A stretch of DNA of 64,000 bases from an uncultured Prevotellaceae bacterium (GTDB lineage: Bacteria; Bacteroidota; Bacteroidia; Bacteroidales; Muribaculaceae): assembly GCA_900320055.1 (NCBI GenBank), contig ONQS01000003.1, positions 31,752 through 95,751 on the forward strand, written 5' to 3'. The notes beneath the pieces are model-generated. The model made no database searches and was not told the origin of the DNA. It saw only the letters and a program-made list of their open reading frames with translations. Below are positions 5,292-23,145 of the stretch, piece after piece. Within the stretch, counting starts at the first letter, position 1. Each line of letters begins with the position of its first letter. A program made the translations under genes and the position numbers.

Positions 5292-5319
5292 TGCCAGGCA
5301 AAATAGCCGTAACCTTATA

Positions 5320-5355
5320 GCCGGAGGGAGCCGTGACTGTGCGGTTCCCTCCGGC
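5320..5355 (+). terminator. Strong GC hairpin after the dockerin/SUMF1 gene
   Basis: A 14-bp stem (GCCGGAGGGAGCCG at 5320-5333 with CGGTTCCCTCCGGC at 5342-5355, one G-U pair, 8-nt loop) begins 28 nt after the stop codon. No T-run follows, so it may slow or stabilise transcript ends rather than be a classic intrinsic terminator. Confidence 0.5.
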
Positions 5356-5460
5356 CGCTGTTGCCAGGGTGGGGCAGGGGCGGCAGGCGCTTGGGCTATC
5401 CCAGCCGGTCCCCGTGTGTGAGGAGTTGTTAACAACTATGAAATTTAGGAAGTGAAAAGG

Positions 5461-5491
5461 TTGGTCAGTTCATAATATTTATGTATATTTG
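5461..5491 (+). promoter_or_regulatory. Promoter of the nuo/atp block
   Basis: TTGG at 5461-5464 and TATATTTG at 5484-5491 are separated by 19 nt and match the Bacteroidetes consensus well. No comparably good promoter was found between nuoA and nuoN, so this is the likely main start for the long energy block. Confidence 0.7.
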
Positions 5492-5497
5492 CACCGC

Positions 5498-5694
5498 ATT
5501 TTGGAGCGTCGCTGTGGCAATGATTTGCGCCCGATGGGCGTAAGTGGTTGTGCAGTAGAGGCTTTGATGTGTTCGTGTGAATTAACCTGCCAAAAATTAA
5601 AACCGATTTTGTGCAAGCCTCGCGACCTGAAAGCCCGCTTTCACTAACTTAGGCACCGCCAGAATTATTAAAACAACTACATACAACTTCTTTT
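5498..5694 (+). other. Long 5' leader of the nuo/atp block
   Basis: About 195 nt separate the predicted transcription start from the nuoA ATG. The leader contains a small hairpin (GCGCCCGATGGGCG) and ends in an A/T-rich stretch without a Shine-Dalgarno site. I see no known riboswitch core. The length leaves room for regulation, but nothing specific can be shown. Confidence 0.4.
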
Positions 5695-6069
5695 ATGGAT
5701 TTATCAATTTTCGGAGTACAGAGTACCACACTCGCCATCACAGCGGCCTTGACCGGTGTGTTGCTGGTAGTCGGCGCTCTGGTTATCGCGTGGCTTATCG
5801 GCCCGCGCAGTTACACTGAGAAGAAAGGCGAGCCCTTTGAGTGCGGTATCCCCACCAGGGGCGACTCGATGGCCCAGTATCATGTGGGCTATTACCTGTT
5901 TGCCATCCTGTTCCTGATGTTTGACGTGGAGACGGTGTTCCTGTTCCCCTGGGCAACCATCTGTAAGGGTATTGGCAGTCAGGCCCTGCTCGCCGTGGGC
6001 ACTTTCCTTGTTATTTTGGTTTTAGGTCTGGCTTATGCCTGGAAGAAAGGAGCGTTGAGATGGAAGTGA
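5695..6069 (+). CDS. nuoA: NADH-quinone oxidoreductase subunit A
   Basis: The product is 124 residues with three hydrophobic segments (about 10-35, 65-88, 95-116), as in NuoA, a membrane-arm subunit of NDH-1 near the quinone site. Diagnostic motifs are KKGEPFECGIP in the loop after helix 1, and HVGYYLFAILFLMFDVETVF with the conserved acidic residues of helix 2. It is the first gene of the block and overlaps nuoB by 10 nt, which suggests translational coupling. Confidence 0.96.
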   Translation: MDLSIFGVQSTTLAITAALTGVLLVVGALVIAWLIGPRSYTEKKGEPFECGIPTRGDSMAQYHVGYYLFAILFLMFDVETVFLFPWATICKGIGSQALLAVGTFLVILVLGLAYAWKKGALRWK

Positions 6070-6671
6070 AAATCAAGTCGATGAAGTATGAGGACTTCAA
6101 GGACAACGAGTATATCGAAAACCTGGTAGAGCAACTGCGCGCTGGCGGCACCAACATCATCGTTGGCAAGTTGGACCAGTTGATGAACTGGGGCGTGAGC
6201 AACTCGCTGTGGCCGCTGTGCTTCGGCACCAGTTGCTGCGCCATCGAGTTTATGTGCCTGGGTGCTGCCCGCTACGACATGGCCCGCTACGGCTTTGAGG
6301 TGGCGCGCAACAGCCCCCGCCAGGCCGACTACATCATGTGCCAGGGCACGATCAACTACCGCATGGCACCGGCCCTCAAGCGCCTGTATGAGCAGATGGC
6401 CGAGCCCAAGTATGTCATCGCCTGCGGCTCGTGCACCGTCAGCGGCGGCCCGTTCAAGAACAGTTACTGCGTGGTTAAGGGCGTGAACGAGATCATCCCC
6501 GTGGATGTGTATCTGCCCGGCTGCCCCCCGCGTCCCGAGGCCTTCTTCTATGCCCTGATGCAGTTGCAGCGCAAGATCAAGGTGCAGAAGTACTTTGGCG
6601 GCGTTAACCGCAAAGAGAAACTCGAGGGCCTGAAGTATGACGGCAAGGTCCTGCAAGAGGAAGCCAAATAA
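6060..6671 (+). CDS. nuoB: NADH-quinone oxidoreductase subunit B
   Basis: The product is 203 residues. NuoB binds the terminal 4Fe-4S cluster N2 that hands electrons to quinone. The four expected ligands are visible: the adjacent pair C59-C60 in FGTSCCAIEF, C125 in ACGSCTVSGG and C155 in YLPGCPPRPE. The start overlaps the end of nuoA. The C-terminal tail beyond about residue 170 is charged and a little longer than in short NuoB forms. Confidence 0.97.
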   Translation: MEVKIKSMKYEDFKDNEYIENLVEQLRAGGTNIIVGKLDQLMNWGVSNSLWPLCFGTSCCAIEFMCLGAARYDMARYGFEVARNSPRQADYIMCQGTINYRMAPALKRLYEQMAEPKYVIACGSCTVSGGPFKNSYCVVKGVNEIIPVDVYLPGCPPRPEAFFYALMQLQRKIKVQKYFGGVNRKEKLEGLKYDGKVLQEEAK

Positions 6672-6698
6672 TTTAACCCGACAAAAATCCATTCAGAT

Positions 6699-8333
6699 AT
6701 GGCAGATATACAAGAAAAAATCACTCAGTTGTGCCTCCAGGCTCAAGTCGACACCACGGGCGAGTTCCCCATGGTGACCGTCGATGACGCTCAGTGGCAC
6801 GACCTGGCACGCGCCTTGAAGGAGCAGTTGCACTACGATGTGCTGAGCGCCGTCGTGGGCATGGACTGGACCGAGGCCCTGGGCTGTGTTTATTACCTGA
6901 CCAACACCAGCACCCATGAGTTGCTGCACGTGAAGGTGGCTACCGCCGACCGCGAGAATCCCCGCCTGCACTCGGTGGTGGACCTGTGGCCCGTGGCCAA
7001 CTTCCAGGAGCGCGAGGTGTATGACTTCTTCGGCATCGTGTTTATCGGCCACCCCGACATGCGCCGCATGTTTCTGCGCACCGACTGGGTGGGCTACCCC
7101 CTGCGCAAGGACTATGATCCCGCGAGCAATCCCCTGCGTCTCGACGACGAGACCAACGAGGACTACACCTGCCGCTGGGTCGAGGACGAGCAGGGCAATG
7201 TCAAGAAGATCGACGGCAAGGTGTTTGAGGACGACGAGTATGTCGTGAACGTGGGCCCGCAGCACCCGTCCACCCATGGTGTGATGCGCTATCGCGCCAG
7301 CCTCGACGGCGAGATCGTCAAGAAGATCGACGTCGTGAGCGGATACATCCACCGCGGCATCGAGAAGTTGTGTGAGAACCTGACCTATCCCCAGATGCTG
7401 CTCTACACCGAGCGCATGGACTATATGGCCGCCCACATCAACCGTCACTGCATGTGCATGTGTGTGGAGAAGGCCCTGGGTCTGGAAGTGCCCCGCCGTG
7501 CCGAACTCATCCGCCTGATGATGGACGAGTTGATGCGCCTGTCGTCACACCTGCTCAGTTACGGCTGCTTGACGATGGACCAGGGCGCTACGACCGCCTT
7601 CTTCTACGGTTTCCGTGAGAGGGAATTGATCTATGACATCTTTGACCGCACCTGCGGCGCCCGCATGTCGATGAGTTACAGCACCATCGGCGGTGTGGTG
7701 GCCGACGTGCATGAGGACTTTATTAAAGATGTGCGCCACGCCTGTGACGTCATCGAGAAGAATCTGGCCGAGTATCACAAACTCTTTACCGGTAACGTCA
7801 TCGCCGTGAACCGCATGACGGGTGTGGGCATCCTCACCAAGCAGGAAGCCATCGCCTATGACATCACCGGCCCCTCGGGTCGCGCCAGCGGATGGCACTG
7901 CGACGTGCGCAAGACCAACCCCTACTCGCTGTATAACGAGTTTGACTTCGACGAGGTGACCTACGAGCATGGCGACTCGATGGACCGCTACATGGTGCGT
8001 ATGCGCGAGATGGAGCAGTGCATCAAGATTCTGCGCCAGGCTTGCGACAAACTCGAGGCCGAGGGTATCCAGGGCGAGTACTGCGCTGCAAAGGTGCCCA
8101 AGGTGATGAAACTGCCCGCCGGCCACTGGTACCAGCAGGTAGAGGCTAGCCGCGGCGCCTTCGGCGTGTACATCGAGAGCGATGGCGGCACCAAGCCCGT
8201 GCGCGTGCACTTCCAGTCGCCGTGCTACAACCTGATCGGCGTGGTCGACCTCACTTGCAAGGACAACATGATCGCCGACCTGATCACCATCACGGCATCG
8301 CTCGACTTCGTAATCCCCGATATCGACCGCTAG
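6699..8333 (+). CDS. nuoCD: Fused NADH-quinone oxidoreductase subunits C and D
   Basis: The product is 544 residues and fuses NuoC (about 1-150) to NuoD (about 180-544). The C part ends with the NuoC signature around NFQEREVYDFFGIVFIGHPD and RRMFLRTDW. The D part starts with NVGPQHPSTHGVMR (residues 184-197), followed by HRGIEKLCE and ERMDYMAAH, which line the quinone cavity together with NuoB. C-D fusion also occurs in Escherichia coli and is usual in Bacteroidetes. The gene lies 27 nt after nuoB and 64 nt before nuoH. Confidence 0.97.
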   Translation: MADIQEKITQLCLQAQVDTTGEFPMVTVDDAQWHDLARALKEQLHYDVLSAVVGMDWTEALGCVYYLTNTSTHELLHVKVATADRENPRLHSVVDLWPVANFQEREVYDFFGIVFIGHPDMRRMFLRTDWVGYPLRKDYDPASNPLRLDDETNEDYTCRWVEDEQGNVKKIDGKVFEDDEYVVNVGPQHPSTHGVMRYRASLDGEIVKKIDVVSGYIHRGIEKLCENLTYPQMLLYTERMDYMAAHINRHCMCMCVEKALGLEVPRRAELIRLMMDELMRLSSHLLSYGCLTMDQGATTAFFYGFRERELIYDIFDRTCGARMSMSYSTIGGVVADVHEDFIKDVRHACDVIEKNLAEYHKLFTGNVIAVNRMTGVGILTKQEAIAYDITGPSGRASGWHCDVRKTNPYSLYNEFDFDEVTYEHGDSMDRYMVRMREMEQCIKILRQACDKLEAEGIQGEYCAAKVPKVMKLPAGHWYQQVEASRGAFGVYIESDGGTKPVRVHFQSPCYNLIGVVDLTCKDNMIADLITITASLDFVIPDIDR

Positions 8334-8397
8334 AGCGCCGCCTGATGACGAGAGTTAATATCACAAGAGAACAAAACCACTAAAAGAGACAAGAGAT

Positions 8398-9480
8398 ATG
8401 TTTGACTTCGGAACAGTCACGAGATGGTTAGATGAGTTGCTCAACAGTGTGATGCCCGCATGGCTCACGACGACGATCGAGTGTGTGCTGGTGGCCGTTG
8501 GCCTGCTGGTGGCTTATTCGCTCATCGCCATGTTCTACATCTTCTATGAGCGCAAGGTCTGCGGTTGGATTCAGTGCCGCCTGGGCCCGATGCGCGTGGG
8601 CAAGTGGGGCTTGCTCCAGGTGTTTGCCGACGTGATCAAGATCCTGCAGAAGGAGTTGATTACCCTGTGGCACACCGACAAGTTCCTCTTCAAGTTGGCT
8701 CCCTATCTGGTGCTCATCGCCTCGATGCTGACCTTTGCATGCCTGCCTTGGGGCAAGGGCCTGCAGATTGTGGACATGAACATCGGCGTGTTCTTTATCA
8801 TCGCTGTGTCGTCGATCGGTGTGCTGGGCATCCTGCTCGCCGGTTGGGCCAGCAACAGCAAGTACACCCTGATCGGTGCTATGCGTAGCGGAGCCCAGAT
8901 GATCAGTTACGAACTGAGTTGTGGCATCTCCATCCTGACGATCGTGTGCCTGGCTGGCACCATGTCGATCACCGGCATCGTCGAGGCTCAGGCCGACGGC
9001 TGGTTCCTGTTCAAGGGACACCTGCCCGCCATTCTCGCCTTCATCATCTATATGATCGCCGCTAATGCCGAGAACAACCGTGGCCCGTTTGACCTGCCTG
9101 AGGCAGAGCACGAGTTGACCGCAGGCTACCATACCGAGTATTCGGGTATCCACTTCGGCTTCTTCTATCTGGCCGAGTACCTCAACCTGTTTATCGTGTC
9201 GGGTATCGCCACGCTGCTCTTCCTGGGTGGCTGGATGCCCCTGCACATTCCCGGCTGGGAAGGCTTCAACCATGTGATGGACTTCATCCCCAGCGTGGTA
9301 TGGTTCTTGGGCAAGGCCTTCTTCATCACCTTCATCTTCTTCTGGATCCGCTGGTCGTTCCCGCGCGTGCGCATCGACCAGATGCTGGCTCTGGAGTGGC
9401 GTTACCTGATGCCCATCGGCCTGGTCAACCTGGTGGTTATGGCCATCATCGTGACCCAGGGCTGGTACTTCGGCGCCTGA
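8398..9480 (+). CDS. nuoH: NADH-quinone oxidoreductase subunit H
   Basis: The product is 360 residues with about eight membrane helices. NuoH connects the peripheral and membrane arms and forms the quinone entry chamber. Characteristic sequences are [19 protein letters not shown] near the first cytoplasmic loop and [20 protein letters not shown] with [13 protein letters not shown] at about residues 222-260, which contain the conserved acidic residues. In a standard nuo locus lacking E/F/G the next gene is nuoI. Here eight ATP synthase genes intervene. Confidence 0.97.
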
Positions 9481-9539
9481 TCTCCGACAGCGCGATATAT
9501 TAATTATATAAGGAGAGACTAACACAGAATTATCTATAA

Positions 9540-11081
<1,542 letters not shown>

Positions 11082-11151
11082 TGACCGCTCGGCCCGCGTG
11101 CAGTTGAGAAAAAGATTATTATAACTGAGTTATACATTATTAATATATAAC

Positions 11152-11385
11152 ATGACACTCAAGATCATATCGGCTGAACAAATCGAGTTTGAAGGCACTG
11201 TCGAGCAGGTGACCCTGCCTGGCGTCATGGGACAGTTCCAGGTGCTGAAAAACCACGCCGCCCTCATCGCCGCCCTGCAGGCCGGCAAGATGAGTTATGT
11301 GGCCGATGGCAACACCGTGGAGCGTGACATTCACGGCGGTGTGGCCGATGTCAAGGATAATGTGGTGTCGGTGTGCTTGTATTGA
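11152..11385 (+). CDS. atpC: ATP synthase F1 subunit epsilon, short form
   Basis: The product is only 77 residues. It covers the N-terminal beta-sandwich of epsilon (LKIISAEQIEFEGTVEQVTL, GVMGQFQVLKNHAALIAAL, VERDIHGGVADVKDNVVSV). The C-terminal two-helix domain, which inhibits ATP hydrolysis in many bacteria, is absent. The frame ends cleanly with TGA, 7 nt before the atpB start, so the shortness is natural and not a frameshift. Short AtpC forms are known in Bacteroidetes. Confidence 0.9.
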   Translation: MTLKIISAEQIEFEGTVEQVTLPGVMGQFQVLKNHAALIAALQAGKMSYVADGNTVERDIHGGVADVKDNVVSVCLY

Positions 11386-11392
11386 TACAGGA

Positions 11393-12469
11393 ATGAAAAG
11401 CAAGATTATTACTGCGATTGTGGCCCTCGTGATTGTGGCACTGATGGGACTGGGCTATTACAGTTCGGCCCAGCACCGTGCCGCCGGTCACGCCAGCGAG
11501 TTGGACCCCAAGGAGACCATCTTTGAGCACTTGGGCGACGCCTACGGCTGGGAGGTGCCCTTCAATCACAACGCGCGCATCCCGTTGCCCATCATCGTGT
11601 GGGGACAGGATGGCCTGCACTGTTTCATGAGCAGCCGCATCACCGGTGGGGAGACCTATGAGGGCTACAAGATCTCGACCAGCGAGCAGTATCACGGCAA
11701 GGTCGTGCAAGTGCTGCCCGACGGTGGCGAGTACCGCCCCTGGGACTTCTCGATCACCAAGAATGTCGCCGCCCTCATCATCGCCGCCCTGTTGGTGCTG
11801 TGGATGGTGCTGTCGCTCAAGCGCTGGTATGCCCGTCAGGGCATGAAGGCGCCTCGTGGCGGTAAGGGCGCCCTGGAGTTTGTGATCGGATTTGTCTATA
11901 CCGACACCATCCGTCCCATCCTGGGCAAGCATGCGCCCAAGTATGCCCCCTACTTGCTGACGGCCTTCTTCTTTATCTTGACGATGAACCTGCTGGGACT
12001 GATCGTGATCTTCCCCGGTGGCGCCAACCTCACGGGCAATATCGCCGTGACGATGGTGCTGGCCGTGCTCACCTTCCTGATCACGACCTTCAGCGGCACC
12101 AAGGAGTACTGGAAGGAAATCTTCTGGCCCGAGGTGCCCATGGCACTGAAGTGCCCCGTGCCCATGATGCAACTCATCGAGGTGCTGGGTATGTTCACCA
12201 AGCCGCTGGCCCTGATGGTCCGTCTGTTTGCCAACATGATGAGCGGCCACATGGTGGTCCTCGTCCTCGTGTTGCTTATCTTTATCTTCACCAACCTGTT
12301 TGGGGTCGGTGTCGGCATCGGCACGAGCATCTTCTCGGTGGCTTTCACCCTGTTTATGCTCCTGCTCGACACCCTGGTGAGTTTCATCCAGGCCTATGTG
12401 TTCACCATCCTGAGCACCATCTTCATCTCGATGGCGCTTGTGGAGCCGCATGAGCATGAGGCCAAGTAA
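11393..12469 (+). CDS. atpB: ATP synthase Fo subunit a
   Basis: The product is 358 residues from the ATG at 11393. The frame is open further upstream, but that part overlaps atpC and encodes no sensible protein. An N-terminal hydrophobic segment (MKSKIITAIVALVIVALMGL) and about 100 mostly hydrophilic residues precede the usual five-helix a-subunit core. The essential arginine is R277 in LALMVRLFANMMSGH. The enlarged N-terminus (most a subunits are about 250-280 residues) fits the Bacteroidetes form. The segment may be a signal peptide or an extra helix. The usual small AtpI-like gene is not present between atpC and atpB. Confidence 0.95.
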   Translation: MKSKIITAIVALVIVALMGLGYYSSAQHRAAGHASELDPKETIFEHLGDAYGWEVPFNHNARIPLPIIVWGQDGLHCFMSSRITGGETYEGYKISTSEQYHGKVVQVLPDGGEYRPWDFSITKNVAALIIAALLVLWMVLSLKRWYARQGMKAPRGGKGALEFVIGFVYTDTIRPILGKHAPKYAPYLLTAFFFILTMNLLGLIVIFPGGANLTGNIAVTMVLAVLTFLITTFSGTKEYWKEIFWPEVPMALKCPVPMMQLIEVLGMFTKPLALMVRLFANMMSGHMVVLVLVLLIFIFTNLFGVGVGIGTSIFSVAFTLFMLLLDTLVSFIQAYVFTILSTIFISMALVEPHEHEAK

Positions 12470-12521
12470 CAAAGACCAAACCGGAATTTCAAAACAAACA
12501 ACAAAAAATATTAACAATTAA

Positions 12522-12773
<252 letters not shown>

Positions 12774-12788
12774 TTTCCCTGAACTCAG

Positions 12789-13286
12789 ATGGAACTTTTC
12801 ACGCCTGAATTTGGCCTGGTCTTCTGGATGTTCCTGGCATTTCTGTGCCTGTACTTCATCCTTGCCAAGTGGGCATGGCCCTTCATCATCAAGTCGATTG
12901 AAGAGCGTGCCGAACTGATCGACAAGGGTGTGGCCTATGCACAGGAGGCCAAGTCGCATCTCGACAATGCCAAGGCCGAGGCCGACAAGTTGCTCGCCCA
13001 AGCGCGTGACGAGCAGGCCGACATCCTGCGTGAGGCCACCAAGATGCGCAACGAACTCATCGAGCAGGCCCGCGGCGACGCTGCCGAGGAGGCCAAAAAG
13101 GTGGCTCAGGCTGCCCAAGTGTCGCTCGAGCAGTCGCGCAAGGAGGCCGAGAAGCAACTGCGCGAGCAGGTGGGCGACTTGGCACTGCAAATCGCCGAGA
13201 AGGTCATCCGCCGCAACATTGCCAGCGATGATGCCCAGCGGGCGCTTGTTGACCAATATCTGAGTGAGGTTGAGACTAAAAACTAA
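12789..13286 (+). CDS. atpF: ATP synthase Fo subunit b
   Basis: The product is 165 residues. One N-terminal membrane helix (about 8-28, FGLVFWMFLAFLCLYFILAK) is followed by a long charged helix rich in Glu, Lys, Ala and Gln that forms the peripheral stator stalk. The gene starts 15 nt after atpE and ends 6 nt before atpH, so it is tightly coupled to both. Confidence 0.95.
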   Translation: MELFTPEFGLVFWMFLAFLCLYFILAKWAWPFIIKSIEERAELIDKGVAYAQEAKSHLDNAKAEADKLLAQARDEQADILREATKMRNELIEQARGDAAEEAKKVAQAAQVSLEQSRKEAEKQLREQVGDLALQIAEKVIRRNIASDDAQRALVDQYLSEVETKN

Positions 13287-13292
13287 CGCGAT

Positions 13293-13838
13293 ATGAGTGA
13301 CGGACTGATTCCACGCCGATACGCTAAAGCGCTCTACAAGTACGCCGTCGAGAACGGTGACGCCCAGGAGATCTATGAACTCCTGAAGACGCTCAGTTTC
13401 CGCTACACCGCTATCGACGAACTCAAGCGCGCGGTGCTCAACCCCGAAATCTCTGACGAGGCTAAGGGGGCCTATATGCTCAATCTCGTGGGCGGCAAGC
13501 CCGGCAGTTCGCTGGACAAGTTCCTGCTGCTGTGCGTGCGCAACGGCCGCGCCGAGTATCTGCAGAAGATATCCCTGGCCTATGTCGAACTCTATCGCGA
13601 GGCGCATGAGATCGCCCACGTGGTCATCACCACCGTGGTGCCCATGCCCGAGCAGGAGGTCAATGCCATTATCGACATCGTCAAGAAGCGCCTGGGGGCC
13701 ATGACGCTCGAGATCGAGCAGGTGATCGACCCCAGCCTGATTGGCGGCTTCACCGTCAAGATCAACGGCCTGGTGCTCGACGCGTCGGTAAAGAGAGAGT
13801 TGAACGAATTGCGATTACAACTGCAAAAGAAAAACTAG
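13293..13838 (+). CDS. atpH: ATP synthase F1 subunit delta
   Basis: The product is 181 residues, the normal length of the OSCP/delta subunit that links the b stalk to the top of F1. It starts with the typical IPRRYAKALYKYAVENG and ends with the C-terminal signature DPSLIGGFTVKINGLVLDAS followed by VKRELNELRLQL. It lies between atpF and atpA with short gaps. Confidence 0.95.
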   Translation: MSDGLIPRRYAKALYKYAVENGDAQEIYELLKTLSFRYTAIDELKRAVLNPEISDEAKGAYMLNLVGGKPGSSLDKFLLLCVRNGRAEYLQKISLAYVELYREAHEIAHVVITTVVPMPEQEVNAIIDIVKKRLGAMTLEIEQVIDPSLIGGFTVKINGLVLDASVKRELNELRLQLQKKN

Positions 13839-13850
13839 AATTCTACAGAG

Positions 13851-15446
13851 ATGATTAATCCCAGTGAAATATCTGACATACTGAAACAACAACTCGTCGA
13901 GGACATCGCCAAGCGGCAGGCCGCCTTTGAGGAAGAAGGCACCGTCCTGGAGGTGGGTGACGGTGTGGCTCACGCCTATGGCCTGCACAATGTCGAGGCC
14001 AACGAACTGGTGCAGTTCGAGAATGGTGTGACCGGCGTCGCTATGAACCTGGAAGAGAGTGATGTGGGTATCATCCTGCTCGACGAGGTCGACAGTGTGA
14101 CCGAGAACATGAAGGTGCGCCGCACCGGCGAGATCGCCTCCATCGAGGTGGGCGAGGGCTTGCTGGGCCGCGTGATCAACGTGCTGGCCAAGCCCATCGA
14201 CGGCAAAGGATCCATCGAGGGCAAAAAACTGCGTCTGCCGCTCGAGCGCAAGGCTCCTGGCGTTATCTTCCGCCAGCCCGTGAACCAGCCGCTGCAGACC
14301 GGCCTCAAGGCCATCGACTCGATGATCCCCATCGGCCGCGGACAGCGCGAACTTATCATCGGTGACCGCCAGATCGGCAAGACCGCCATCGCGGTGGACA
14401 CCATCATCAACCAGCGTGCTGGCTACGAGGCCGGCAAGCCGGTATACTGCATCTATGTCGCCATCGGTCAGAAGGCTTCGACCGTGGCAGCCCTGGTCAA
14501 CAAACTCGAGGAGAGCGGCGCACTGCCCTATACCATCGTGATTGCCGCCACCGCTGCCGACTCGGCATCGATGCGCTATTATGCCCCCTTTGCCGGTGCA
14601 GCCATCGGCGAGTACTTCCGCGACACCGGCCGCGACGCTCTGGTCATCTATGACGACCTGTCCAAGCACGCGGTGGCCTACCGTGAGATCTCGCTGATCC
14701 TCAAGCGCCCCTCGGGCCGTGAGGCTTATCCCGGCGACATCTTCTATCTGCACAGCCGTCTGCTGGAGCGTGCAGCCAAGATCAACGAGAACCAGGCTGT
14801 GGCCAGCGTGATGAACGACCTGCCCGAGCCGCTCAAGCCCATCGTCAAGGGCGGCGGTTCTCTCACGGCACTTCCCATCATCGAGACGCAGGCCGGCGAC
14901 GTGAGCGCCTACATCCCCACCAACGTGATTTCGATCACCGACGGTCAGATCTACCTCGAGTCGGCCCTGTTCAACTCCGGTATCCGTCCTGCCGTCAACG
15001 TGGGTATCTCGGTATCCCGTGTGGGTGGTAACGCTCAGATAAAGTGTATGAAGAAGGTGGCTGGTACCCTCAAGATCGCCCAGGCGCAGTACCGTGAACT
15101 CGAGGCCTTCACCAAGTTTGGTGGCGACATCGACCCCGTTACGGCACGCACCATCGACACTGGCCGCAAAAACGAGCGCCTGCTCGTGCAGCCCCAGTAC
15201 ACTCCCATGCAAGTCGAGGAACAGGTGGCCATCATCTACTGCGGTGTGAACGGTCTGTTGCGCGACGTGCCCCTGGACAAGGTGGGCGAGTTTGAGAAAC
15301 TGTTTATCCAGTACCTGCGTGGCAAGCACCAGAGCGATGTGCTCGACGTGCTGCGCAGCGGCAAGATCGACGACGATGTCATGAGCAAACTCAAGGCTGC
15401 CGCTGCCGAGATTTCGGCTAAGTATACCGAGGCTCCTGCCAAATAA
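13851..15446 (+). CDS. atpA: ATP synthase F1 subunit alpha
   Basis: The product is 531 residues. The nucleotide-binding loop GDRQIGKT is at residues 171-178, and the regulatory alpha features [13 protein letters not shown] and [19 protein letters not shown] are present, as is [17 protein letters not shown]. Alpha binds nucleotide without catalysis and alternates with beta in the F1 hexamer. The gene starts 12 nt after atpH. Confidence 0.98.
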
Positions 15447-15473
15447 AATTTCAGCAATCATTTAGTTCGCAAG

Positions 15474-16352
15474 ATGTCAACATTAAGAGAACTCAAAACG
15501 CGTATAGGCTCGGTGGCCTCGACCCAGAAGACGACAAGCGCCATGAAGATGATCTCGTCGTCCAAGATGCGCAAGGCTACCGGCCAGTTGCAGCGCCTGT
15601 CACCCTACCGCCACATGGTGCAGCACGTGATCAGCCACCTGCTGGTGACTGACCAGCAGTTTGACTCGCCGCTCATCGCCGAGCGCGAGGTGCAGCGTGT
15701 TGCCCTGGTGGTGTTTGGCAGTGACGATGGCCTGTGCGGCGGTTTCAACGTCAACATCTTCAAGCAGTTGCTCGTCACTATCGACGAGGTGCGCCGCCAG
15801 TATGGCGACCAGGTGGGCATCACCGTGGTGCCCGTGGGCAAGAAGATGGCTAAGGCTGTCGACAAGATCGGCGGCGTCCAGGTGGAGCGCGTGGCCCTCA
15901 ACACCCGCAGCGGCAGCGAGGACCTGTATGCCTTTACCGACCTGATGAAGACCCGTTTCCTGGAGCACACGTTCGACCGTGTGGAGATGCTCTACATGCA
16001 CTTCATCTCCACCGGCAAGCAGGTGTTCACGCGCGAGCAGTTGCTGCCCGTGAGTTATCAGGGTCTTGCCGACAATGTTGACCCGCGTGCCGCCAACAGC
16101 CCTTGCCTGTTTGAGCCCGACGCCAACACCATCTTCAACACGGTGCTGCCCCTGCACGTGAAGTCGATGCTCCAGGATGTGTTCATCCAGAGCGCGGCCA
16201 GCGAGCAGAGCGCGCGCGTGATGGCGATGCAGGCGGCGAGCGACAACGCCAAGGAGTTGCTCGACGAGTTGCAACTGGAGTACAACAAACTGCGTCAGCA
16301 GGGCATTACCACCGAGTTGCTCGACATCCTGGGCGGCCAGGTGGAACGCTAA
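15474..16352 (+). CDS. atpG: ATP synthase F1 subunit gamma
   Basis: The product is 292 residues and forms the central rotor shaft. The N-terminal helix (STLRELKTRIGSVASTQKT then TSAMKMISSSKMRKA) and the C-terminal helix (MAMQAASDNAKELLDELQ then LEYNKLRQQGITTELLDI) are the conserved coiled-coil parts. GLCGGFNVN marks the central domain. This is the last atp gene, and nuoI begins 44 nt later on the same strand. Confidence 0.97.
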   Translation: MSTLRELKTRIGSVASTQKTTSAMKMISSSKMRKATGQLQRLSPYRHMVQHVISHLLVTDQQFDSPLIAEREVQRVALVVFGSDDGLCGGFNVNIFKQLLVTIDEVRRQYGDQVGITVVPVGKKMAKAVDKIGGVQVERVALNTRSGSEDLYAFTDLMKTRFLEHTFDRVEMLYMHFISTGKQVFTREQLLPVSYQGLADNVDPRAANSPCLFEPDANTIFNTVLPLHVKSMLQDVFIQSAASEQSARVMAMQAASDNAKELLDELQLEYNKLRQQGITTELLDILGGQVER

Positions 16353-16396
16353 CGCGAAGTAGTAACACATCAGCATCTAAGTAAAAACATTGAAAT

Positions 16397-16978
16397 ATGA
16401 GCATCAAGGAGTATTTCGTCTCAATCTTTAAAGGCTTTTACAGCCTGATCAAGGGCATGGAGGTGACCGGTAAGGAACTGGTGACCCCCAAGGTGACCGA
16501 GCAGTATCCCGAGAATCGCGCCACACTGCACATTCCGGAGCGATTCCGTGCGACATTGGAGTTGATCTATGTTGACGGTTACCACAAGTGTATCGCCTGT
16601 GGCAGTTGCGAGCGCAACTGTCCCAACCAGACCATCAGCATCACCAAGCGCATGGTGGAGCAGCCCGACGGCAAGAAGAAAATGAAACTGGACAAGTACA
16701 TGTATGACCTGGGAAGTTGCACCTTCTGCGGCCTGTGTGTACAGGTGTGCCCCACCAACGCGATCCGGTTCAGCAACGATTTTGAGCAGGCCGTGTTCAC
16801 GCGTGACAAACTCGTTAAGCGGCTCAATTACCTGCCCGAGAAGGACGACGCTCCCGCACCCGCCGCCAAGCCTGTGGCACCCGCTGCGCCCAAGGCTGCT
16901 GCCGAGCCCAAGCCGGCTTCCGCGGCACCCGCTGCTGCCGACGAGACTAAACAAGAACCTAAAGAAAACAAGGAATAA
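16397..16978 (+). CDS. nuoI: NADH-quinone oxidoreductase subunit I with Ala/Pro-rich tail
   Basis: The product is 193 residues. Two 4Fe-4S motifs are complete: C65, C68, C71, C75 (CIACGSCERNC) and C108, C111, C114, C118 (CTFCGLCVQVC). They carry clusters N6a and N6b that lead electrons to NuoB. After about residue 150 the protein continues as a low-complexity tail of Ala, Pro, Lys and Glu that is unlikely to fold on its own. With NuoE, F and G absent from the locus, NuoI is the outermost redox subunit encoded here and a likely docking site for the unknown electron donor. The stop codon overlaps the nuoJ start by one base (TAATG). Confidence 0.96.
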   Translation: MSIKEYFVSIFKGFYSLIKGMEVTGKELVTPKVTEQYPENRATLHIPERFRATLELIYVDGYHKCIACGSCERNCPNQTISITKRMVEQPDGKKKMKLDKYMYDLGSCTFCGLCVQVCPTNAIRFSNDFEQAVFTRDKLVKRLNYLPEKDDAPAPAAKPVAPAAPKAAAEPKPASAAPAAADETKQEPKENKE

Positions 16979-17493
16979 TGGAATCATTAGGTAACATCAT
17001 TTTGTATTTTATCGTTGCGATCGCCATCATCGTCTTTTCGGTGCTGACGGTGACCACGCGCAAGATTTTGCGCTCCGCAACCTATCTGCTGTTTGTGCTG
17101 TTTGCCACAGCCATCATCTACTTCCAGATGGACTATCAGTTCCTGGGAGCGGTACAGATTGCCGTCTATGCCGGTGGCATCCTGGTGCTGTTTGTGTTTG
17201 CCATCATGCTCACGCATCAGCCGGGCAAGAATGCCGAGGCGCTGTCCACGCATCGCCGTTGGCTGGGACTGACGGCCGCGCTGGCAGGTGTCGCCGTGTG
17301 CGGCTATAGCCTGTTCAGTTATGCCGGATTCGGTGGCAGGCTGCTCAGCGGCGATGTGGACGTCAATATGGAGAAGATAGGCCAGTTCTTGTTGAGTACC
17401 GACAAGTGGGGCTATCTGTTGCCTTTTGAGGCCATCAGTGTGTTGTTATTGGCTTGTATCATTGGAGGTGTGGTTATTGCCCGTCGCCGCTAA
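16978..17493 (+). CDS. nuoJ: NADH-quinone oxidoreductase subunit J
   Basis: The product is 171 residues with five membrane helices. NuoJ packs against NuoA and NuoK and contains the pi-bulge helix. The diagnostic stretch is FQMDYQFLGAVQIAVYAGGI followed by LVLFVFAIMLT. Its start shares a base with the nuoI stop, so the two are probably translated together. Confidence 0.95.
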   Translation: MESLGNIILYFIVAIAIIVFSVLTVTTRKILRSATYLLFVLFATAIIYFQMDYQFLGAVQIAVYAGGILVLFVFAIMLTHQPGKNAEALSTHRRWLGLTAALAGVAVCGYSLFSYAGFGGRLLSGDVDVNMEKIGQFLLSTDKWGYLLPFEAISVLLLACIIGGVVIARRR

Positions 17494-17509
17494 ACATGAA
17501 GTTAAGATT

Positions 17510-17821
17510 ATGGATTTGACACTGTTTATGTATCTCATTCCCAGCCTGATCATGTTTGGCTGTGGCGTTTATGGTTTCATCACCCGCAAAAACATGATTG
17601 CGATCATGATTTCCCTGGAGTTGATGCTCAACTCGGTGGATATCAACTTTGTGGTGTTTAACCGTTACCTGTTCCCTGGTCAGATGGACGGCATGTTCTT
17701 CTCGCTGTTTGCGATTGCTATCGCAGCGGCCGAGACGGCGTTGGCCCTTGCCATCATCATCAATGTGTTCCGCTTGGCCAAGAACGTGGACATCAACCAA
17801 ATCACTAAACTGAAATTCTAA
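17510..17821 (+). CDS. nuoK: NADH-quinone oxidoreductase subunit K
   Basis: The product is 103 residues from the ATG at 17510. The frame is open 28 codons further upstream inside nuoJ, but family length and the first helix support this start. Three membrane helices are evident, with the conserved glutamates of helices 2 and 3 in ISLELMLNSVDINFV and AAAETALALAIIINVFR, part of the proton path. Confidence 0.95.
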   Translation: MDLTLFMYLIPSLIMFGCGVYGFITRKNMIAIMISLELMLNSVDINFVVFNRYLFPGQMDGMFFSLFAIAIAAAETALALAIIINVFRLAKNVDINQITKLKF

Positions 17822-17826
17822 CGATT

Positions 17827-19824
17827 ATGCCATTAAGTTTAGCAATAGTAGTTGTAGCATTGCCCCTGCTGATGTTCCTGTTCCTGGGACTCGTCGGGGT
17901 GAAGATGGGTAGAAAAATCACGGGTGTGATTGGCGTGTTGGCCATGCTGGTCGATACCGTTCTGGCCTATGGCGTTGCGTTGACCTACTTCTTCGGCAGC
18001 GGTCAGGGTCAGATGGTGGATGGCGTGCGTCAGGCCGTCGTCGTAGCCAATCCCGCCTGGCTGTCGTTTACCGACACGCTGGTGGTGCGCATGGGTGTCC
18101 TGGTGGATCCCATCGCAGCCATGATGCTTGTGGTCATCACCACGGTATCGCTGATGGTGCACCTCTACAGCCTCGGTTACATGAGCGACCATGAGGGCAA
18201 CGCCGAGAAGGGATTCCAGCGTTACTATGCCTTCCTGGCCCTGTTCACGTTCTCGATGCTGGGTCTGGTGGTTGCCACCAACATCTTCCAGATTTTTATC
18301 TTCTTTGAGATGGTGGGTCTGTCGTCCTACCTGCTCATCGGTTTCTATTATTCCAGTCCTGCAGCCAATCATGCCAACAAGAAGGCCTTTATCGTCACCC
18401 GTCTGGCTGACTTGTTCTTCCTGTTGGGTATCATGATCCTGAGTTACTACACGGGCACGTTCGACTTCGACAAACTGGTCTTTGGACCCACGATGTCGGG
18501 TAGCCTCGAGACGGCTCAGAGCGCCATCAGCACTGCCGGAGGCGCCACCTTTATGGGCTGCTCGGTAATGGCTTGGGCGCTGACCTTCATCTTCATTGGC
18601 GGCGCTGGTAAGAGTGCGATGTACCCGCTGCACATCTGGCTGCCCGATGCCATGGAGGGTCCCACGCCTGTGTCGGCCCTGATCCATGCTGCTACGATGG
18701 TTGTCGCCGGTGTGTTCCTGGTGGCTAGGCTCTTCCCGCTGTATGTGCTTGTGCAGGGTGCTATGAACATCATCCTGGTCGTTGGCGCCTTCACGGCATT
18801 CTATGCAGCCGCCATCGCCTGCACCCAGAGCGACATCAAGCGAGCGCTGGCCTTCTCGACCATCTCTCAGATTGCCTACATGATGACTTCGCTTGCCGTT
18901 AGTTCGATGAACAATAGCCTGATCGAGATACACGAGGGCTATGGTCTTGGCTACATGGCATCGATGTTCCATCTGTTCACCCACGCCATGTTCAAGGCGT
19001 TGCTCTTCCTGTGCGCCGGTGCTATCATCCACGCCGTTCACAGCAACGAGAACAGCAAGATGCACGGTCTGCACAAGTTCATGCCCATCACCAGCATCGC
19101 CTTCCTGATCGGCTGTCTGGCCATCGCGGGTATTCCCCCGTTTGCCGGCTTCTGGAGCAAGGATGAGATCCTTGTCGCTGCCTACCAGCGCGGTCTGGGT
19201 TGGGGCCTGTGGATGTCGATGGTGGCTGGTATGACCGCCTTCTACATGTTCCGCATCTACTACCTCATCTTCTTCTGGAAGAAACATGAGGTACACGATC
19301 CGCATCACGCTCCCAAGGATCAGCCCTGGACGATGACGCTGCCGCTCATTATCCTGGCATCGATTTCGGTTGTGGCTGGCTTTGTTCCCTTCCACGACAT
19401 GGTGACTTGGGACGGCAAGGCTCTGCACACCGCCCTCGACTGGACGGTTGCCGGCTCGAGCGTCTGCGTTGCCCTGGTGGGTATCGGCTTGGCCACGGTG
19501 ATGTACTACAAGGAGAACCCGCTGCCCGAGCGCATGGCCAATGCGATGCGCGGCTTGTGGACCGCTTCCTACAAGCGCTTCTACATGGACGAACTCTACC
19601 AGTTCATCACCCACAAGGTGATCTTCCAGGCCATCTGCGTTCCCATCGCCTGGTTCGACCGTCACATCATCGACGGGTTCATGAACCTGCTGGCCGATGC
19701 GACCAACTCGTTCTCCTACTCGATCCGCCGCCTGCAGTCGGGTAGCATCCAGTCCTACGTGTTTGTGTATCTGCTGGGAGCCCTTCTGCTCGCCGCAGTC
19801 ACTATGGTGTGTGTGTTACTCTAA
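17827..19824 (+). CDS. nuoL: NADH-quinone oxidoreductase subunit L
   Basis: The product is 665 residues, the distal antiporter-like proton-pumping subunit. Typical sequences are IFIFFEMVGLSSYLLIGFYY, GKSAMYPLHIWLPDAMEGPT then PVSALIHAATMV, GIPPFAGFWSKDEIL, and the long C-terminal part that forms the lateral helix. It is the largest protein of the membrane arm and follows nuoK after 5 nt. Confidence 0.97.
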   Translation: MPLSLAIVVVALPLLMFLFLGLVGVKMGRKITGVIGVLAMLVDTVLAYGVALTYFFGSGQGQMVDGVRQAVVVANPAWLSFTDTLVVRMGVLVDPIAAMMLVVITTVSLMVHLYSLGYMSDHEGNAEKGFQRYYAFLALFTFSMLGLVVATNIFQIFIFFEMVGLSSYLLIGFYYSSPAANHANKKAFIVTRLADLFFLLGIMILSYYTGTFDFDKLVFGPTMSGSLETAQSAISTAGGATFMGCSVMAWALTFIFIGGAGKSAMYPLHIWLPDAMEGPTPVSALIHAATMVVAGVFLVARLFPLYVLVQGAMNIILVVGAFTAFYAAAIACTQSDIKRALAFSTISQIAYMMTSLAVSSMNNSLIEIHEGYGLGYMASMFHLFTHAMFKALLFLCAGAIIHAVHSNENSKMHGLHKFMPITSIAFLIGCLAIAGIPPFAGFWSKDEILVAAYQRGLGWGLWMSMVAGMTAFYMFRIYYLIFFWKKHEVHDPHHAPKDQPWTMTLPLIILASISVVAGFVPFHDMVTWDGKALHTALDWTVAGSSVCVALVGIGLATVMYYKENPLPERMANAMRGLWTASYKRFYMDELYQFITHKVIFQAICVPIAWFDRHIIDGFMNLLADATNSFSYSIRRLQSGSIQSYVFVYLLGALLLAAVTMVCVLL

Positions 19825-19859
19825 TATCAACGGTCTTGACAAAATAGAAAGGATATACA

Positions 19860-21389
19860 ATGGAAATTTTCAATAATATACTGATTTACTTTGTGATCGT
19901 GCCTCTGTTGACACTCGGAGGTCTGGCCTTGTGCAGCAACCGCGGCATCAAGGCCATCAGGACCGTTGCCGTCGTTGGCGCCAGTGTGCTTGTGGTGCTG
20001 GCAGCGATGCTCGTGAGCATCTTCCTGCAGGCCCGCGGCGCTGGTGACACCAGCGAGATGATCCTGCGCAGCGACGTGATGTGGTATGCCCCGTTCAACG
20101 TGCATCTGGCCCTGGGTGTGGATGGCGTCAGCGTCGTGATGATCCTGTTGTCGGCCTTTATCGTGTTTGCCGGCGTCTTTGCCTCGTGGAAGATGAACCC
20201 GCTGCCCCGTCAGTTCTTCATGTGGTTCTTCCTGCTGTCCACGGGTGTGTTTGGCTTCTTTATCTCGATCGACCTGTTCACGATGTTCATGTTCTATGAG
20301 GTCGCTCTGATTCCCATGTACCTGCTTATCGGTGTGTGGGGCAGCGGCAACAAGAACTACAGTGCGATGAAACTGACGCTGATGCTGATGGGTGGCTCGG
20401 CCTTCCTGATGCTCGGCCTGATCGGTATCTACTTCCACTCGGCTCCCGAGGGTCAGCCCTTGACGATGAACATCCTGGACATCGCCCATAACAATGCGAT
20501 TCCCCACGGCTGGCAGTATGTGCTGTTCCCGCTGACGTTTGTCGGCTTTGGCGTGCTGGGTGCCATGTTCCCGTTCCACACATGGTCTCCCGATGGTCAT
20601 GCCTCGGCGCCCACCGCGGTGTCGATGCTCCACGCCGGTGTGCTGATGAAGTTGGGTGGTTATGGCTGCTTCCGCATCGCCATCTATCTGATGCCGTTTG
20701 CCGCCAACGAGTTGGCTTGGATCTTCCTGCTGCTCACGGGCTTCAGCATCGTCTATGGTGCCTTGAGTGCCTGTGTCCAGACCGACCTGAAGTACATCAA
20801 CGCCTACTCGAGCGTGAGCCACTGCGGTATGGTGCTGTTTGCCATCCTGATGTTCAACACCACGGCGATGACGGGTGCTGTGCTGCAGATGCTGTCTCAC
20901 GGTCTGATGACGGCCTTGTTCTTTGCCCTGATCGGTATGATCTATGGCCGCACCCACACGCGTGACATCCGCGACATGGGCGGTATGATGCACATCATGC
21001 CTTACCTGGGCGTGGGCTACGTGATTGCCGGTCTGGCATCGCTGGGTCTGCCGGGTCTGAGCGGTTTCGCTGCCGAGATGACCATCTTCTTCGGCTCGTT
21101 CCAGCACACCGACATGTTCCACCGTGTGCTCACCATCATGGCGACCACGTCGATTGTCGTGACGGCGGTCTACATCCTGCGCGTTGTTGCCAAGTTGCTC
21201 TTTGGCGAGGTACAGGACGAGCATCACCGCACGCTCACCGACGCCAGTTGGGAAGAGCGCCTGTCGACGGCCACGCTCATTCTGGCCGTGGCTGCCATCG
21301 GTTGCTTCCCCAACTTCTTTATTAACATCATCAGCAGCAGTTTTGACCCCGTCGTTAAGGCGCTGCAGGCTGCTCTGCCCGTGTTGTGA
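19860..21389 (+). CDS. nuoM: NADH-quinone oxidoreductase subunit M
   Basis: The product is 509 residues with about 14 membrane helices, the second antiporter-like subunit. The conserved motor residues lie in MFMFYEVALIPMYLLIGVWG, FPFHTWSPDGHASAPTAVSM and LHAGVLMKLGGYG. GLPGLSGFAAEM near the end is also typical. The gap to nuoL is 35 nt. Confidence 0.97.
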   Translation: MEIFNNILIYFVIVPLLTLGGLALCSNRGIKAIRTVAVVGASVLVVLAAMLVSIFLQARGAGDTSEMILRSDVMWYAPFNVHLALGVDGVSVVMILLSAFIVFAGVFASWKMNPLPRQFFMWFFLLSTGVFGFFISIDLFTMFMFYEVALIPMYLLIGVWGSGNKNYSAMKLTLMLMGGSAFLMLGLIGIYFHSAPEGQPLTMNILDIAHNNAIPHGWQYVLFPLTFVGFGVLGAMFPFHTWSPDGHASAPTAVSMLHAGVLMKLGGYGCFRIAIYLMPFAANELAWIFLLLTGFSIVYGALSACVQTDLKYINAYSSVSHCGMVLFAILMFNTTAMTGAVLQMLSHGLMTALFFALIGMIYGRTHTRDIRDMGGMMHIMPYLGVGYVIAGLASLGLPGLSGFAAEMTIFFGSFQHTDMFHRVLTIMATTSIVVTAVYILRVVAKLLFGEVQDEHHRTLTDASWEERLSTATLILAVAAIGCFPNFFINIISSSFDPVVKALQAALPVL

Positions 21390-21429
21390 TGAAAGTGTTT
21401 AACCTGATAAAAATTGCACAATAATAGAT

Positions 21430-22899
21430 ATGATGGATTATTCACAATTCTTGTTGATGCCGCAGGAGATAGGCCTGTTGCTGGTTTTCCTGCTTGTTTT
21501 CATCTATGACACTTTCATGCCAGAGCGCTCACAGCGTTACATGCCCGTGTTCTCGGTCATCATGATGGCGCTCTACACGATATACTGTTTCTGCTGCCCC
21601 GCTGGGGTGGGAGAGGCCTTTGGCGGAATGTTTGAGTCTAACGCGGCCACCTGGGTGATGAAGAACATCCTCAACGTGGGTGTCGTGCTGGTACTCCTGC
21701 AGGCCGTGAAGTGGACCAACAGCGACTTTGTGAGTGTTCGCCGCGGCGAGTTCTACGAGTTGACGCTGTTGACGCTGCTGGGCATGTTCCTCATGATTTC
21801 GGCACGCCACTTCCTGCTGTTTGTCATCGGTCTGGAGACGGCTTCGCTGCCCATTGCCGCGCTGGCCGCTTTTGAGAAGCGCTACTATGAGTCGCACGAG
21901 GCAGCCGCCAAGTACATCTTCACGGCTATCTTCTCGTCGGCGATCTTCCTGCTGGGCATCTCGTTTGTCTATGGTATGAGCGGTTCGCTCTACTTCAAGG
22001 ACATCGCCACCGCGCTCATCGGCAACGGCTCGGCCCTGCTGATCGCTTCGCTGGCCTTTGTCATCGCCGGTGTGGGCTTCAAACTCTCGCTGGTACCGTT
22101 CCACCAGTGGACAGCCGACGTCTATCAGGGTGCTCCCACCGCTGTGACCAGTTATCTGTCGGTCATCAGCAAGGGCGCTGCCGCGTTCTCGTTCCTGGTG
22201 ATTCTGGTGCAGGTGTTCGGCTCGGCCTACTCTCAGGTGTGGGAGTGGATGCTCTATGCCGTGATTATCCTCACCATCACGCTGGGTAACCTGTTCGCCA
22301 TCCGTCAGCGCAACCTCAAGCGCTTCCTGGCCTTCTCGTCGATCTCGCAGGCCGGCTACATCATGCTCGGTGTGATTGCCGTCAACGTGATGGGCATGTC
22401 GTCGATGATCTACTACGTGCTGGTCTACATCTTCAGCAACCTCGCCGCCTTTGGCGTGATTGCCGCTATCGAGCGCCACACGGGCCGAGTGACGATGGAC
22501 GACTATAACGGTCTGTTCAAGACCAATCCTTGGCTGGCCTTCGCGATGATGCTTGCGATGTTCTCGCTGGGCGGTATTCCCCCGTTTGCAGGCTTCTTCA
22601 GCAAGTTCTTCATCTTTGTGGGCGCATGCCATCAGGGTTCTGTTGCCATCTATGCGCTGGTACTCATCGCCCTGGTCAACACCATCATCTCGCTGTACTA
22701 CTACCTGCTGGTGGTTAAGGCCATGTTCCTGCGTCAGGACGATTGCGTGATCGAGCACTTCACGAGCCACTGGACCGAGCGTCTGGGACTCATCCTGTGT
22801 GTGCTGGGCATCATCTTCATCGGCTTGGTATCCTGCATCTACGCCAGCATCAATGGCGCTGTGGATGCCATCGGCGCAATGTTTGCAGCCGTGCAGTGA
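21430..22899 (+). CDS. nuoN: NADH-quinone oxidoreductase subunit N
   Basis: The product is 489 residues, the third antiporter-like subunit. Visible signatures are LFVIGLETASLPIAALAAF, GFKLSLVPFHQWTADVYQGA and PTAVTSYLSVISKGAAAF, and GGIPPFAGFFSKFFIF. Two ATG codons open the frame. I use the first, 40 nt after nuoM. This ends the nuo/atp block, and a hairpin terminator follows about 95 nt later. Confidence 0.97.
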   Translation: MMDYSQFLLMPQEIGLLLVFLLVFIYDTFMPERSQRYMPVFSVIMMALYTIYCFCCPAGVGEAFGGMFESNAATWVMKNILNVGVVLVLLQAVKWTNSDFVSVRRGEFYELTLLTLLGMFLMISARHFLLFVIGLETASLPIAALAAFEKRYYESHEAAAKYIFTAIFSSAIFLLGISFVYGMSGSLYFKDIATALIGNGSALLIASLAFVIAGVGFKLSLVPFHQWTADVYQGAPTAVTSYLSVISKGAAAFSFLVILVQVFGSAYSQVWEWMLYAVIILTITLGNLFAIRQRNLKRFLAFSSISQAGYIMLGVIAVNVMGMSSMIYYVLVYIFSNLAAFGVIAAIERHTGRVTMDDYNGLFKTNPWLAFAMMLAMFSLGGIPPFAGFFSKFFIFVGACHQGSVAIYALVLIALVNTIISLYYYLLVVKAMFLRQDDCVIEHFTSHWTERLGLILCVLGIIFIGLVSCIYASINGAVDAIGAMFAAVQ

Positions 22900-22994
22900 T
22901 CTGCCGGCACCGTACTGATATGAATACATTACTTCTGATATCATTTAGCATAACCAAACAACTAAATTAATCAGGTTTATTCATAACAATGATT

Positions 22995-23038
22995 GGGAGA
23001 GCATCGTGGTGGTCCACTGTGCTCTCCTCTCTTTTTTT
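22995..23038 (+). terminator. Rho-independent terminator after nuoN
   Basis: GGAGAGCA (22996-23003) pairs with TGCTCTCC (23020-23027), and inside it GTGG pairs with CCAC. The stem is followed by TCTC and seven T residues. It closes the energy block and isolates it from the leucine-rich-repeat gene. Confidence 0.85.
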
Positions 23039-23058
23039 CTGAATTCATTAGCCCTTTA

Positions 23059-23090
23059 CTTGCGAATTTGACATTTTCTTGCTATATTTG
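23059..23090 (+). promoter_or_regulatory. Promoter of the leucine-rich-repeat gene
   Basis: CTTG at 23059-23062 and TATATTTG at 23083-23090 are 20 nt apart. The leader of about 50 nt is A/T-rich and has no Shine-Dalgarno site. Confidence 0.65.
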
Positions 23091-23145
23091 TGGCGAATAG
23101 TAATTGGATATACTAAAATTTATTAATTTTTAAACATATTGTGCT

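Follow-up and report, generated by a model that had tools for sequence, protein, structure and literature searches.

An ATP synthase operon inside the complex I locus of a Bacteroidales clade, with apparent loss of its own promoter motif

How did a complete set of ATP synthase genes come to lie among the genes of respiratory complex I, and are the two enzymes made from one transcript? The question is raised by an uncultured Prevotellaceae bacterium, placed by GTDB in the Muribaculaceae (GenBank assembly GCA_900320055.1), of which a stretch of 64,000 nucleotides (nt), here called the window, was analysed (contig ONQS01000003.1, positions 31,752 to 95,751, forward strand). Between 5695 and 22899 on the + strand, the list of open reading frames (ORFs) contains 18 genes in the order nuoA-B-CD-H, atpD-C-B-E-F-H-A-G and nuoI-J-K-L-M-N, and all eight subunits of the F-type ATP synthase (alpha, beta, gamma, delta, epsilon, a, b and c) are encoded at the locus. 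This order, on one strand and with short gaps, was the core of the original prediction, made from the letters of the window; Pfam, run on all 18 genes, named every one of them (NCBIfam was run on the first ten only), and the intergenic distances range from -10 to 101 nt. The features of the locus are as follows.

5461-5491, + strand: Bacteroidetes-type promoter motif, TTGG-N19-TATATTTG, about 200 nt before nuoA
5695-6069, + strand: nuoA (PF00507, 2.4e-34)
6060-6671, + strand: nuoB (PF01058; NF011391 above cut-off)
6699-8333, + strand: nuoCD fusion (PF00329 and PF00346)
8398-9480, + strand: nuoH (PF00146, 1.5e-116)
9481-9581, + strand: nuoH-atpD junction, 101 nt, without TAnnTTTG
9582-11081, + strand: atpD, beta subunit (TIGR01039 above cut-off)
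11152-11385, + strand: atpC, epsilon subunit (PF02823), 77 amino acids (aa), N-terminal domain only
11393-12469, + strand: atpB, a subunit (PF00119), start shifted from 11297 of the mechanical ORF list
12534-12773, + strand: atpE, c subunit (PF00137)
12789-13286, + strand: atpF, b subunit (PF00430)
13293-13838, + strand: atpH, delta subunit (PF00213)
13851-15446, + strand: atpA, alpha subunit (PF00006, PF00306)
15474-16352, + strand: atpG, gamma subunit (PF00231, 3.8e-80)
16353-16396, + strand: atpG-nuoI junction, 44 nt; a terminator-like stem was looked for here and not found
16397-16978, + strand: nuoI (Fer4 domains), with a long Ala/Pro-rich tail
16978-17493, + strand: nuoJ (PF00499)
17510-17821, + strand: nuoK (PF00420), start shifted from 17426 of the mechanical ORF list
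17827-19824, + strand: nuoL (PF00361, PF00662)
19860-21389, + strand: nuoM (PF00361)
21430-22899, + strand: nuoN (PF00361)
22995-23038, + strand: intrinsic terminator after nuoN, 15-bp stem and T-run

The joins between the two gene sets recur in many genomes. A set of 91 loci was assembled from named genomes with NuoH (the best 80 of 123 encoding stretches), ten further regions and the window. In 86 of these nuoH is followed by atpD; 69 have both the nuoH-atpD and the atpG-nuoI junctions and the other 17 reach a contig end before nuoI. Both junctions are also present in 10/10 additional in-clade loci that reach nuoH, two of them in the single-contig genomes G430 and G463 (L215 was excluded, as its contig breaks off within atpD and does not extend to nuoH). 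The nuoH-atpD join was thereby found in 96 loci. The gene directly after nuoI is nuoJ in 75 of the 77 fused loci whose sequence extends far enough to show it, and the two exceptions (L065 and L217) have a run of N after nuoI. Median junction lengths are 51 nt for nuoH-atpD (96 loci) and 39 nt for atpG-nuoI (69 loci), and in L093 the stop-to-start gaps are 26 nt and 6 nt. The five non-adjacent loci among the 91 comprise L077 and L079, where nuo is uninterrupted, L080, where nuoA-N precedes atp, and two loci (L037 and L039) in which nuoH is followed by an ORF of secreted type. The ORF in L037 (11139-13289) encodes a 716-aa protein with LRR_5 and dockerin domains and lies on the same strand between nuoH and atpD; the contig of L039 ends inside a matching ORF, which starts at 2345 after nuoH. 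L039 is a second nuoH copy in the G020 bin. These data confirm the arrangement as genuine and rule out an error of assembly.

The arrangement is already known, since Ormerod et al. (2016) described F-type ATP synthase genes lying within the complex I locus of the Bacteroidales family S24-7 ('Ca. Homeothermaceae'), with 11 of the 14 Nuo subunits, NuoEFG absent and Nqr in most genomes (PMC4936053). The original prediction, which had taken it to be new, was mistaken in this respect. The S24-7 locus shares with the window the position of atp within nuo and the missing NuoEFG; the passages of that report on the locus do not cover its junctions, promoters or origin and contain no survey of the order, and the clade described here spans seven GTDB family labels. 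No paper on the transcription or origin of the fused locus was found among the titles and abstracts inspected from the open-access literature.

The explanation that we favour, with a probability of about 0.72, combines a single insertion, vertical descent, promoter loss and one predicted transcript. A complete atp operon, contiguous beforehand (beta-epsilon-a-c-b-delta-alpha-gamma), would have entered the nuoH-nuoI interval a single time, in the ancestor of a Bacteroidales clade to which Muribaculaceae-labelled bacteria belong, and gene order and trees suggest that inheritance since then has been mainly vertical. The atp genes would have lost their own promoter and perhaps their own terminator. 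In the lineage of the window, a predicted transcript of ~17.5 kb, starting at the nuoA promoter and ending at the terminator that follows nuoN, would then supply both a complex I of the 11-subunit type without the NADH module and a putative H+-type ATP synthase. A probable consequence is that a quinone-linked ion pump and the enzyme driven by its gradient must always be expressed together. We infer this co-transcription from motif loss and short gaps; any fitness benefit is conjectural.

Based on motif comparison, the locus in the window looks like one transcription unit. The consensus promoter is TAnnTTTG with TTTG upstream (PMC7366714). A sequence of this type, TATATTTG, is present at 5484-5491 with TTGG 19 nt upstream, and on the + strand of 5291-23150 TAnnTTTG has only two other occurrences, one overlapping the start codon of nuoH (8397) and one ahead of the gene that follows the locus (23083). 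The promoter before nuoA, the strong terminator after nuoN and the lack of a clear promoter in between, as originally proposed, are all upheld. The sigma-70 scan is ill-suited to the Bacteroidetes phylum and was not used as promoter evidence.

Fused and unfused loci were then compared by counting TAnnTTTG within 250 nt upstream of gene starts; the fused set leaves out L037, L039, L077, L079 and L080. It was counted ahead of atpD in 5 of the 96 fused loci versus 18 of the 24 unfused ones, and a first run on fewer loci gave the same picture (3/86 versus 11/17). A Fisher test on this contrast gives 3e-12, which is not a true probability because the loci are related. Upstream of nuoA the motif is found in 71/89 fused loci, and at internal genes of fused loci it occurs at nuoH in 4/95, nuoCD in 2/95, atpA in 2/95, nuoI in 3/79 and nuoL in 9/75. 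In G461, one of the two nearest unfused genomes, the separate atp operon has the motif ahead of atpD as well as a strong terminator behind atpG. The contrast at atpD supports loss of the atp promoter motif in the fused loci, and the ATP synthase genes, it seems, no longer have a promoter of their own. This comparison is what the present analysis adds to the published arrangement, and it may serve as a worked example of one operon absorbing another. The suggestion that both enzymes are tied to one transcript is thus strengthened, as the window locus resembles one unit and the atp motif is largely gone across the 96 fused loci, with co-transcription still a prediction.

Terminator-like sites follow nuoN in 12/14 fused and 13/17 unfused loci. 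After atpG they are found in 11 of 79 fused loci, which is like the internal background (14/95 each after nuoB and nuoCD).

Several observations weigh against the proposed transcription of the fused locus. The loci are related and the counts are not independent. The nuoA motif is missing from 18 of the 89 fused loci, including all eight from families f60, f68 and f88 (three loci each in f60 and f68), and just 7 of the 17 unfused loci carry it. In f88, both loci have TAnnTTTG ahead of atpD and lack it ahead of nuoA, so an internal promoter may persist in this family. A terminator-like site follows atpG in only 8 of 18 unfused loci, and G142, the other nearest unfused genome besides G461, has neither motif nor terminator around its separate atp genes; loss of the terminator is for these two reasons weakly supported. 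Strong, long GC-rich stems, some with T-runs, are present at the atpG-nuoI junction in several lineages. The loci with such stems are L038, L045, L047, L053, L058, L060, L087, L089 and L090, and it is possible that the stems act as attenuators that set the ratio of Atp to Nuo. A hairpin or attenuator conserved at the junctions was considered and rejected: in 63 junctions, with duplicate, very short and very long ones excluded, 17 strong folds were found versus 15.7 expected from shuffles, overall no excess.

The same kinds of observation would fit two operons that are merely neighbours, with atp driven by an internal promoter that is not of the TAnnTTTG type (read by an extracytoplasmic function (ECF) sigma factor or lying inside nuoH) and with little regulatory meaning in the arrangement. 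Compatible with this are the five loci that do have the motif before atpD (L091 and L216 from f88, plus L069, L093 and L212), the hairpins at some atpG-nuoI junctions, the AT-rich character of the 101-nt gap before atpD in the window and the gene between nuoH and atpD in L037. However, 91 of the 96 fused loci have no motif before atpD, some junctions are as short as those of L093, and the arrangement has been kept throughout the clade. We consider this alternative unlikely, at perhaps one chance in four, and the absorption of atp into a nuo transcription unit the better account.

The fused locus is confined to one clade under seven GTDB family labels and was not found elsewhere in the order and phylum samples, where NuoH/AtpD pairs were matched by eye from tables. 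In a close-relative sample of 60 genomes, 36 of them of the same genus, NuoH was matched in 31/36 same-genus genomes and an atpD match lay within ~110 nt in 30/31; the sole exception, G028 (which is L037 by its coordinates), has atpD 2.4 kb from the NuoH match. The five same-genus genomes without a NuoH match are 62-89% complete. Labels on the close relatives include Muribaculaceae, Prevotellaceae, Porphyromonadaceae and Bacteroidales. In the order sample (149 genomes; cut-offs E <=1e-60 for NuoH and E <=1e-100 for AtpD), NuoH was found in 57 genomes and AtpD in 129. Eleven of the 57 NuoH-bearing genomes are fused and belong to families f1, f22, f28, f60, f68, f88 and f109. In the phylum sample (128 genomes), NuoH was found in 115 and AtpD in 68 at the cut-offs used, and NuoH and AtpD lay within 20 kb on the same strand in none of the 54 genomes having both (0/54, the window's own genome excluded). 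The original prediction had allowed that the arrangement might prove to be described already and common across the order; it has been described, but only one clade carries it.

Maximum-likelihood trees with ultrafast bootstrap support (UFBoot) fit a single origin of the fusion, which the sequence data thereby support, and the arrangement is old. Concatenations kept 33/39 genomes for nuo and 31/39 for atp; G149 was removed from the RpoB tree (branch 4.6, probably the wrong ORF), and G058 from the atp tree; G124 has no RpoB match. The fused genomes form one group in the trees of concatenated Atp (UFBoot 98, 20 tips) and concatenated Nuo (UFBoot 100, 17 tips). In the AtpD tree of 80 sequences, 19 fused sequences group together (UFBoot 97) and are sister to those of the f106 genomes G142 and G461 (UFBoot 100), within other Bacteroidales (36 tips, UFBoot 100). 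In G142 (L095 and L096) the nuo genes are unbroken, and the atp genes lie apart from them on the opposite strand, at a distance of ~23 kb. Together with the AtpD placement and the gene order known from Bacteroides and Prevotella, this layout suggests that the ancestor probably had a separate, contiguous atp operon. The minor ATP synthase transcription unit described in those two genera has the same order, beta-epsilon-a-c-b-delta-alpha-gamma; its joining to nuo is not reported in the passages on that unit, and the text does not contain the word 'nuo' (PMC5709465).

All six unfused loci inspected (L094, L098, L100, L118, L203 and L204) carry, between atpC and atpB, a small hydrophobic ORF (~120-150 aa) whose position resembles that of AtpI. 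The atpC-atpB gap of the fused clade is too short to hold such an ORF, and f106 has no room for it either, so its loss may predate the merger. Early atp trees, with their long stem branch, hinted that atp was acquired from outside the order; this reading was dropped once the 80-tip AtpD tree placed the fused atp within a Bacteroidales group. A search with AtpB of G142, run on 295 genomes of the order, served to locate unfused relatives that are nearer and was not aimed at donors from outside.

The genome G147 fits a single origin with vertical descent poorly. The ten fused genomes with RpoB data group only together with it (UFBoot 100), and it lies within their group, beside the window genome G000 (UFBoot 95). 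G147 (L108 and L152) has no NuoH match and has a different, unfused atp operon. Possible reasons are a loss followed by replacement, an artefact of long branches or a bin of mixed origin.

G147 is also one of the points that could favour spread of the fused cluster as a unit by horizontal transfer, together with the seven family labels that carry the fusion and the discordance of unfused G142, whose Atp is sister to the fused clade and whose Nuo groups with G173 and G059 (UFBoot 99), such that atp and nuo histories can differ nearby. Nevertheless, the ten fused genomes with RpoB data do come together in that tree, with G147 among them, and the order of fused families is similar, by eye, in the three trees; transfer is accordingly improbable beside mainly vertical inheritance. 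An assembly or binning artefact, which the 73 contigs of the window genome might have suggested, is refuted by the gene-order comparison around nuoH and nuoI, as the same junctions recur in dozens of separately assembled genomes, the two single-contig ones among them.

The complex I encoded at the locus is of the 11-subunit type without the NADH module: by Pfam on the 18 genes, none of nuoE, nuoF and nuoG is in the locus. The name NDH-1 used in the original prediction is therefore loose, and electrons enter from some other donor. The only Complex1_51K match in the window genome is a 668-aa HydB-like ORF beside FeFe-hydrogenase-like ORFs (named by reading the sequences). On contig C63 of G000 (L159:2149-8499) a HydB-like, two FeFe-hydrogenase-like and a 163-aa NuoE/HydC-like ORF stand in a row, a possible electron partner situated away from nuo. 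NqrA was matched in 13/13 genomes tested, in 12 of them above cut-off.

A c-subunit whose carboxylate is not accompanied by the Na+ ligand pattern is of the H+ type. In the window, helix 2 of the c-subunit reads LIEG, with Gly following Glu, which by this general rule suggests the H+ rather than the Na+ type. If so, the merger ties an ion pump without an NADH module to an H+-driven synthase.

The nuo operon of B. fragilis likewise has a Nuo set without NuoEFG and, unlike the fused locus, is separate (BF638R_0841-0850), with no atp genes named in it in the passages that describe it (PMC7002350). The equivalent complex was reported there to have no NADH:quinone activity; nuo deletion neither lowered NADH:quinone activity nor impaired the colonisation of mice, and expression of nuo in rich medium was poor (PMC7002350). 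If co-transcription holds, the gut and rumen bacteria of the fused clade would, in contrast to Bacteroides, be unable to adjust the amounts of ATP synthase and complex I independently, and would offer a natural test of whether a NuoEFG-less complex I matters for energy conservation, its expression being tied to a central enzyme. A stronger version would extend this to the whole clade: atp would have lost both promoter and terminator and become captive to a complex I unable to use NADH, a pump that in B. fragilis is poorly expressed and not needed for colonisation would be locked to housekeeping levels, and both enzymes would be gained, lost and regulated only together. We hold this version tentatively, the odds being somewhat against it.

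In UBA1754 (L080/L094; L094 is G185), nuo and atp also adjoin on one strand, as in the fused locus, but nuoA-N is unbroken and is followed by atpD-C-B-E-F-H-A-G; the nuoN and atpD matches are 264 nt apart, atpD is preceded by promoter motifs, and a terminator follows atpG. Its Nuo lies outside the fused clade, and the tandem is an independent clustering of nuo and atp. UBA1754 as an evolutionary intermediate (tandem, then swap) was rejected, as its Nuo groups with G169 (UFBoot 100) and its AtpD falls outside the fused group.

The window genome is 93% complete and contains one NuoH match and three PF00006 matches, two in the window (F1 alpha and beta) and one in a 700-aa open frame on another contig, which we take to be Rho. 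In the window, no Rfam elements were found at gathering score and no tRNA genes were found. NuoI of the window is 193 aa long with its extra Ala/Pro tail; in the other genomes compared the matched length is 132-173 aa, mostly ~145. Dockerin type I domains are present on proteins on both sides of the cluster, one FGE-sulfatase-like (4308-5291) and one with LRR (23146-25443).

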